Source: Roseovarius sp. MMSF_3359 (GTDB taxonomy: Bacteria; Pseudomonadota; Alphaproteobacteria; Rhodobacterales; Rhodobacteraceae). From it: a stretch of 64,000 nt of DNA. The DNA is taken from positions 186,001-250,000 of the forward strand of contig NZ_JASHJC010000002.1 of assembly GCF_030733385.1 (NCBI RefSeq). The letters are read 5' to 3'. Below, piece by piece: positions 22,202 through 60,526 of this stretch (the first letter of the stretch is position 1; every line of letters begins with the position of its first letter). The notes beneath the pieces are model-generated. The model was not told the DNA's origin, made no database searches, and saw only the letters and a program-made list of their open reading frames with translations. A program made the translations under genes and the position numbers.

Positions 22202-22528
22202 GGGCTCGCAGGCAAGCGACGACAGGAGCATCGGACAGTTGTTGGTTCTTCGGACAAAGCGGGCCTTCGATCACCATTGAAACAGAGGGCATCGCCCGAC
22301 CGCGGGTGGGCGCCGCTGAGGTTGTTCATCGCACTTTATGGTGACGCGTACATTCAACAATCGTTCGGATTGACACGACGAGGAAGCGCCCGCCCATGGG
22401 GCGGTCGGGCGCTGCCCGGCGGTGCTGCGCACCTTGATTCCGGGCTGGAGCAATGCCTGCAACGGGCTCAAAGCTGACCTTGCCTGGGGTCTTACCTGTC
22501 CGGAGGAAATTTGTCCGAAACGCCTGGC
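22202..22528. other. Convergent gap holding a structured element
   Basis: Gap of 327 bases between soeC (+) and a GNAT gene (-). No gene is supported; short frames through it are GC artefacts. The centre (22289-22445) is copy A of the repeat described separately. No separate terminator with a T-run is seen, so the element itself may end transcription. Confidence 0.7.
22289..22445 (+). repeat. Structured intergenic element, copy A
   Basis: Flanking arms 22289-22303 and 22401-22415 are inverted repeats (15 bases, one mismatch). Local hairpins: CGCCC/GGGCG (22293-22312); AGCGCCCG/CGGGCGCT (22385-22413); and a two-part hairpin with outer stem GCCCGG/CCGGGC (22414-22419 with 22440-22445) and inner stem GGTGC/GCACC around loop TGC, with TTGATT unpaired on one side. 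Copy B at 60367-60526 keeps the same pairs with different bases. It lies between convergent genes. The arm pairing and the local hairpins are mutually exclusive, so it may switch between folds or act as a terminator or small RNA. Confidence 0.75.
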
Positions 22529-60319: not shown

Positions 60320-60366
60320 CCGACTTTTGCTTTTCGAGACCTAGCGAAGGCTTACGAATAGGCCGC

Positions 60367-60526
60367 GCGATTGCCAGACCGCGGGGTGGCGATCAACCGT
60401 TGTCAAACGCGCTTTATCTCTGCCGAGTCCGGAAAACCTCTGATCAGTTCGCAACCTCTCCCAATCGCCAGCCCTTGCGGGCGGTCTGGCGATCGCGCGG
60501 CGGCGCTGCGCGCCTTGATTCCGCGC
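60367..60526 (+). repeat. Structured intergenic element, copy B
   Basis: Second copy of the element at 22289-22445. Flanking arms 60367-60382 and 60481-60496 pair over 16 bases with one G-T pair. Hairpins: ATTGCCA/TGGCGAT (60370-60393), ATCGCCAG/CTGGCGAT (60464-60493) and GCGCGG/CCGCGC (60495-60500 with 60521-60526) enclosing GGCGC/GCGCC, loop TGC and unpaired TTGATT. Base differences from copy A within stems are compensated on the other side. Between convergent genes again. Confidence 0.75.

Follow-up and report, generated by a model that had tools for sequence, protein, structure and literature searches.

A structured intergenic repeat with two mutually exclusive folds across Rhodobacteraceae, probably a REPIN-like miniature mobile element

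What kind of element keeps its shape while its stem sequences are exchanged, and what maintains it in a genome? The question is raised by the window, the whole 64,000-nt stretch of the Roseovarius sp. MMSF_3359 genome that was analysed. Two diverged copies of one structure had been described in it by the initial annotation at 22289-22445 and 60367-60526, and reading both stretches placed them at the same positions. The edges given by covariance model R1, which was built from 37 copies, are 22284-22445 (copy 1; L018 685-846, 143.8 bits) and 60362-60526 (copy 2; L044 563-727, 151 bits), both on the plus strand. Flanking arms, a left hairpin, the spacer CGC(A/G)CTTTAT, a middle hairpin, a two-part right hairpin and TTGATT were all recovered in both copies, and the compensated base-pair changes reported between them exist in the aligned copies. 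A codon-based gene caller likewise put both between convergent genes, which by their Pfam names encode a DmsC-type anchor (+) and a GNAT protein (-) beside copy 1, and an MR/enolase-type protein (+) and an SLT_2 transglycosylase (-) beside copy 2. In an R1 search of 252 kb, copy 2 (E = 5.2e-29) and copy 1 (E = 1.6e-27) stood far above chance; these E values are flattered because both copies are seeds of R1, while the matches in other genera are non-seeds. Folded alone, 150-nt parts of the two copies gave plus-strand z-scores of -2.2 and -2.3 and minus-strand z-scores of -2.7 and -0.5, which are modest because GC-rich shuffles also fold well. The case for the element rests on covariation and recurrence, folding energy aside.

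The element is about 165 nt long, with its segments in the order a, s1, p, q, s2, loop, s3, q*, p*, s4, a', hairpin T, a. Two inverted imperfect palindromes (a-s1-p-q-s2, about 31 nt) enclose a loop of about 75 nt with a conserved CTTTAT, and after the right palindrome comes an asymmetric 3' hairpin in which TTGATT stays unpaired. The reverse complement of the left arm (a s1 p q s2) gives the right arm (s3 q* p* s4 a'). Each arm also forms an imperfect palindrome, s1 with s2 on the left and s3 with s4 on the right, so that two folds are available that exclude each other. Fold X is one long hairpin, in which a pairs with a', s1 with s4, p with p*, q with q* and s2 with s3. Fold Y consists of three local hairpins, s1-s2, s3-s4 and a' with the 3' a. 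In copy 1, arm s1 (22291-22297, from folding and covariation analysis) can pair locally with s2 (22308-22313, from covariation analysis) or at long range with s4. Segment p (GACCGC, 22298-22303) pairs with p* (GCGGTC, 22401-22406) in the long hairpin only, and its columns 15-124 hold AT 71, CG 14, GC 11 and TA 1. Arm s3 (22385-22391), p* and s4 (22407-22413) were placed by covariation and the alignment of 105 matches. The 3' hairpin (22414-22445) is made of GCCCGG, the inner stem GGTGC-TGC-GCACC, the unpaired TTGATT (22434-22439) and CCGGGC. The loop motif reads CGCACTTTAT in copy 1 (22330-22339) and CGCGCTTTAT in copy 2 (60408-60417), where TTGATT is read at 60515-60520; all of these parts lie on the plus strand. 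All 37 seeds carry the same TTTAT in the loop, and their TTGATT hardly varies; among 105 wider matches both are mostly kept, with invariance lost.

The element had been thought to be present twice; instead, at least 63 places were found in its own genome after merging by position, 52 of them of 150 nt or more. This merged count uses DNA queries with copy 1 (at least 43 matches, from the best 40 of 90 candidates scored) and copy 2 (at least 33 matches, 32 of them full length, from the best 32 of 136 candidates scored), and 63 is a lower bound because only part of the candidates was scored. Copy 1 belongs to subfamily A, in which 16 full-length copies reach at least 85% identity to this copy and three more 71-77%, and copy 2 to subfamily B, with 32 full-length copies at 84% or more. 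The low identity between the two window copies is thus explained by their belonging to different subfamilies of one genome, whose stems differ and whose fold and loop motifs are the same. With the copy 1 query (E <= 0.001), matches were found in 21 of 24 genus genomes, the own genome included, and in none of 16 genomes of other families. The copy 2 query matched all 16 genus genomes searched (again with the own genome) and one of nine genomes of other families (G030), by a single weak match (E = 9e-4). Other species carry subfamilies of their own, an example being genome G015, with 21 matches of which the long ones lie at 68-78%. Among the matches listed, no syntenic counterpart of either window site was seen in the genus, and no genome had both flanks of either copy adjacent as an empty site. 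At the dmsC 3' end of 20 relatives, R1 found the element only in G245 and not in the other 19.

In the own genome the similarity among subfamily A copies runs about 40 nt past the edges first described. On the left it covers 22250-22283 (TCGGACAAAGCGG..., outer and TIR-like), a motif kept in 18 own-genome copies lined up and absent from the G006 copies inspected; on the right it covers 22446-22482, with the consensus GGGNGCAATGTCCGCAATGGGCTC... in the copies lined up. Neither flank is assigned a strand. A second motif was often seen to frame the element (left TGCGGAC(A/G)AAGCGGACAT, right AATGTCCGCNNTGGGCTCAAAGCGGACAT), in the window at 22250-22283 and 22446-22482 and elsewhere at L032, L071, L102 and L121. 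Part of the right framing motif occurs at 18 genome places with at most one mismatch, some of them away from the copies listed, and the framing motif may be a separate dispersed repeat. Loci L083-L088 of G015 carry an outer inverted repeat of their own (GGCCTGAAGGGGACGTT and its complement in L083), which varies by copy with its complementarity largely kept. As a general feature, an outer stem beyond the core was rejected: although it is clear by eye in G015, pairing of own and of swapped flanks was nearly alike overall, at -29.2 versus -29.1 kcal/mol in G000, -33.1 versus -30.2 in other Roseovarius and -31.9 versus -29.9 in other genera, with standard deviations of 6 to 9 throughout the comparison.

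Several unusual copies were also observed. Extra hairpin-forming inserts lie within the element in L034, L036, L116, L117 and L181, often in or beside the right hairpin; they look like other palindromic repeats nested in the element. In L040 (650-719) and L043 (629-694) the interior is gone and the left arm is fused to the right arm, as expected of deletion across inverted repeats. Two tandem copies each, with the same 234-nt period, were found in Pararhodobacter oceanensis (L247 4668-5062) and Salipiger bermudensis (L253 4691-5089). By eye, the copy at L031 1-76, at the edge of contig C26 (G000), adjoins part of a superoxide dismutase-like gene, which is either an insertion into the gene or an assembly edge.

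Covariation was analysed statistically for both folds. In the 37-copy alignment, both-sided changes occur in 17 of 36 pairs of X and 9 of 29 pairs of Y, and the covariation scores of both lie above all 500 shuffles and all slid controls; for Y, the numbers of double-change pairs and of further pair types are not clearly above the shuffles (200 and 78 of 500). A second alignment took 31 loci, almost one per genus, with truncated, insert-bearing and weakest matches omitted, and some others for brevity. Here both-sided changes were counted in 21 of 33 pairs of X (score 0.403, shuffled 0.121) and 18 of 29 pairs of Y (score 0.354, shuffled 0.112), and none of 500 shuffles reached any of five measures for either fold. 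Having been fitted to Y, this alignment leans to Y and not to X. Pairs peculiar to X covary, and so do those peculiar to Y. A pair formed in X only (columns 17-140) is AU 14, CG 12, GC 4 and UA 1, and one formed in Y only, in the 3' hairpin (columns 155-190), is CG 16, GC 11, AU 3 and GU 1; each is paired in 31 of 31 loci. The shuffles leave relatedness in, and the slid controls, which keep it too, drop to 0.03-0.06. The proposals that shape is conserved over sequence and that two alternative folds exist are thereby borne out. With further copies across the genome and the family, and with scores beyond 500 of 500 shuffles, the claim of a conserved structure stands.

The type of pairing does not distinguish RNA from DNA. 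In the right local hairpin of the 105 aligned matches, 1061 of 1145 cells are Watson-Crick, with GU 5 and AC 23. The left local hairpin has GU 60 and AC 26, and the long fold GU 101 and AC 78 over 29 pairs, 42 of these AC in two end pairs. G-U is therefore not favoured over A-C in the best-kept hairpin, and is slightly favoured in the long fold.

Further searches showed how far the element extends. At E <= 1e-4, R1 was positive in 96 of 198 family genomes, one per genus, with at least 14 copies in 23 of them, at least 8 in 37 and a single copy in 28. A second model of the short form without the central loop, R2, was positive at the same threshold in 65 of 198 genera. Thirty low-copy genomes, with 96 candidates scored in each, hold one or two copies apiece; a single ancestral locus for these was considered and rejected, as the copies mostly lie at different sites with a few common ones. 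A pattern scan of named genomes returned at least 111 stretches, and the 80 listed all bear names of Rhodobacteraceae, Paracoccaceae or other Rhodobacterales save four: Agromyces, Streptomyces, a Bilophila MAG and an alphaproteobacterial MAG. When R1 was applied to 24 of these 80 loci, the alphaproteobacterial MAG was found to hold the element and the other three were not. Rfam gave no match over the whole window at the gathering threshold, and none to copy 2 at E up to 1. Among the open-licence literature matches listed, no description of a repeat of this kind in Rhodobacteraceae was found. The element is a structured repeat found family-wide in Rhodobacteraceae, and covariation clearly supports two exclusive folds for it. 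For annotation it matters that 63 or more places in a genome are easily taken for small RNAs or terminators.

The placement of copies was examined in this genome and its genus, with short and deleted forms included. Of the 97 copies sampled, which count one place twice, two overlap weak short calls; in the other 95, overlap with a called gene never exceeds 60 nt. With the double sampling removed, 82 copies have both neighbours called: 45 lie between convergent, 33 between tandem and 4 between divergent genes, against a window baseline for gaps of 60 nt or more of 7, 22 and 7. Location between convergent genes, which had been put forward for the two window copies, holds for both of these; as a rule it gives way to a strong bias. 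In the 33 tandem cases the genes run against the element in 20 and with it in 13. Certain gene neighbourhoods are occupied in different genera, namely cysS-cimA, rplW-rplB (L125, L134), the 3' side of gyrB/parE (L130, L132, L150) and that of lepA (L137, L140), the names of the last three being taken from NCBIfam on one locus of each (L125, L130 and L137). No target-site duplication was recognised in the flanks inspected by eye.

Of these neighbourhoods, cysS-cimA amounts to a natural experiment, being filled in both orientations or empty according to genus. Spacers of 70 genera were collected (30 best cimA matches and 40 picked by hand from the list), and both genes were found in 68. As 54 of the 70 are R1 carriers, compared with 96 of 198 family-wide, the sample is rich in carriers and its occupancy is no estimate for the family. 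The spacer holds the element in 25 of 68 genera (R1 or R2, E <= 0.01), the weakest matches being L390, L173 and L384 (R2 E 0.006 to 0.0015), and 43 of 68 have no match; a further match, L375, could not be placed and was left out of the count. Relative to cimA, 13 elements are in plus and 12 in minus orientation. The element edge lies a median of 20 nt past the cysS stop codon (range -11 to 58), and 22 to 449 nt separate the element from cimA. In 14 of 68 genera cysS and cimA overlap or abut, which leaves an empty site. A cimA tree built from the first 30 rows requires 12 changes among the three states, compared with a mean of 12.3 for shuffled labels. Its resolution is weak, with 5 of 27 inner branches starred, and 2 to 4 changes in each state follow from the starred branches alone. 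One starred sister pair has opposite orientations, L171 minus and L173 plus, the latter a weak match. Six Roseovarius genomes also carry an element in cysS-cimA, five in plus orientation and the window's own genome in minus.

Among the roles first suggested, a REP-like mobile element fits best, and the comparisons made here suggest that the element is probably a REPIN-like, non-coding, non-autonomous miniature mobile element of Rhodobacteraceae. This reading fits best because the subfamilies are lineage-specific, copy number is patchy, copies are placed at 3' ends and one site is occupied in both orientations. On the other side, no transposition was observed, and no pair of close strains with one filled and one empty site was found. 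The placement data can also be read as a service to the host. The element could be a host-selected mRNA 3'-end structure, a stable hairpin in read-through transcripts from either side that shields upstream mRNA from exonucleases or acts as an RNase III/E processing site, as has been proposed for REP elements. The strong 3' bias, with 45 convergent and 4 divergent of 82, speaks for such a role, as do the sites common to different genera (rplW-rplB, gyrB/parE, lepA) and the tight spacing behind cysS, a median of 20 nt in either orientation, set against the 22-449 nt to cimA. One short form adds to this: it folds at -64 kcal/mol with z -6.5, the strongest among four folded, whose z ran from -2.2 to -6.5. 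Against such a role, the cysS-cimA site is filled in a scattered way (no match in 43 of 68 genera, 14 of which have no spacer) and without clustering on the tree, copy number varies widely among genera, and the best-kept hairpin shows no preference for G-U pairs. Taken together, a purely host-serving element of this type is unlikely, though it deserves to be kept in mind. Some copies at common gene ends of different genera could also have been inherited vertically over a long time because they serve the host, and a host role at mRNA 3' ends and mobility may both hold, for different copies.

The two other roles had been suggested from the window copies themselves. Bidirectional termination between convergent genes would suit their convergent setting and stable stems, but a scan of both window copies on both strands found no terminator-like site of stem and T-run, so that an intrinsic bidirectional terminator finds no support there. 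Moreover, 33 of the 82 copies lie between same-strand genes, some of them in cysS-cimA or between ribosomal protein genes, and termination does not require conserved loop motifs; a bidirectional terminator is highly improbable. The conserved loop motifs CTTTAT and TTGATT, together with the covariation of two exclusive plus-strand folds, would in turn be expected if the copies were independent small RNAs of one family that switch between two folded states. No promoter-like site was found at either window copy by the sigma-70 consensus, from which alphaproteobacterial promoters may differ, and there is no Rfam match, so at the sequence level this role finds no support. The dozens of dispersed copies in the own genome count against it as well, and the G-U and A-C counts do not point to RNA. 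That the element is a small RNA family is hardly credible.

The REPIN-like mobile reading was further examined through the enzyme that might carry the element. Y1_Tnp, the RAYT/IS200 class and the sole family sought, occurs in 19 of 198 genomes. It is mildly enriched in genomes with at least 8 copies (8 of 37, versus 11 of 161 others; p = 0.011), absent from 29 of these 37 and present in 4 of the 23 with at least 14 copies. Element-positive and element-negative genomes have it in 12 of 96 and 7 of 102 cases, respectively (p = 0.23). The own genome has one 113-aa Y1 frame, with no R1 match within 3300 bases around it. RAYT/Y1 as the carrier was therefore rejected, the enrichment being weak and most high-copy genomes lacking Y1. 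It follows from the latter that a RAYT is not needed for the present abundance; past help is possible. No carrier enzyme or parent transposon was found in the 198 genomes with the Y1_Tnp search. The element in this way bears on the question of whether REPIN-like elements need a RAYT at all.

A mechanism can be proposed from these features. The element would spread as single-stranded DNA in its folded state, with an enzyme acting on it in trans; such treatment of a folded strand fits the finding that shape is kept while stem sequence is exchanged freely. The fold would be maintained because the enzyme reads the shape together with the CTTTAT and TTGATT motifs. Of the two folds, the long hairpin may be inert, and the enzyme may recognise the local hairpins. 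Placement at 3' ends would reflect tolerance by the host, perhaps with some benefit to mRNA 3' ends. In its most specific form, this amounts to a miniature mobile element governed by a fold switch, with a non-RAYT enzyme that reads shape and the two loop motifs and places the element either way round, a fixed distance past stop codons. So complete a picture is speculative and, as a whole, rather doubtful.

How does the element compare with known systems? MITEs are likewise non-coding, with inverted-repeat ends and lineage-specific amplification. The element differs in that no target-site duplication was seen by eye and no parent transposon was found in the search for Y1_Tnp; moreover, its inverted repeats keep complementarity and not sequence. 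ERIC, RIME and similar palindromes resemble it in size class, intergenic location and strong folding, a likeness by description only, and their host range differs from that of the element.

The REPs tagged with GTAG or CGTC are palindromic and intergenic, and lie downstream of genes, between convergent or unidirectional ones, according to PMC3733652. The element shares the preference for 3' ends and for convergent and unidirectional gaps (45 convergent, 33 tandem and 4 divergent of 82). The tags are another matter: in a zone reaching from 3 nt inside each end to 8 nt outside it, GTAG, CGTC and their complements were each found in no more than 2 of the 105 copies, and within 15 nt before s3, CGTC occurs in 16 and GACG in 13 of 105. 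The unit is also longer, about 165 nt compared with 20-40 nt for these REPs. Frequent GT pairing, which that paper takes as a sign of RNA, is absent from the element's best hairpin. PMC3733652 contains none of the words Rhodobacter, Roseo and Paracoccus.

The closest comparison is with REPINs, described in PMC3116915 as two inverted REPs that form a hairpin and are associated with a RAYT. A supplementary legend there contrasts a stable hairpin with a "clover" form and proposes the second as the one likely to be recognised. Beyond a weak enrichment, association with RAYT/Y1 was not found for the element, most high-copy carriers being without it. It further differs in its longer spacer with a conserved motif, its extra asymmetric 3' hairpin, the lack of a REP tag and stems that vary between subfamilies of one genome. 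Membership of the class breaks down on the tag, and the transposase does not support it. What it shares with the REPINs of that source is an intergenic location, many copies, some of them in tandem pairs, and two alternative folds, built from inverted imperfect palindromes around a spacer that are able to form one hairpin. The parallel with REPINs is one of working principle.
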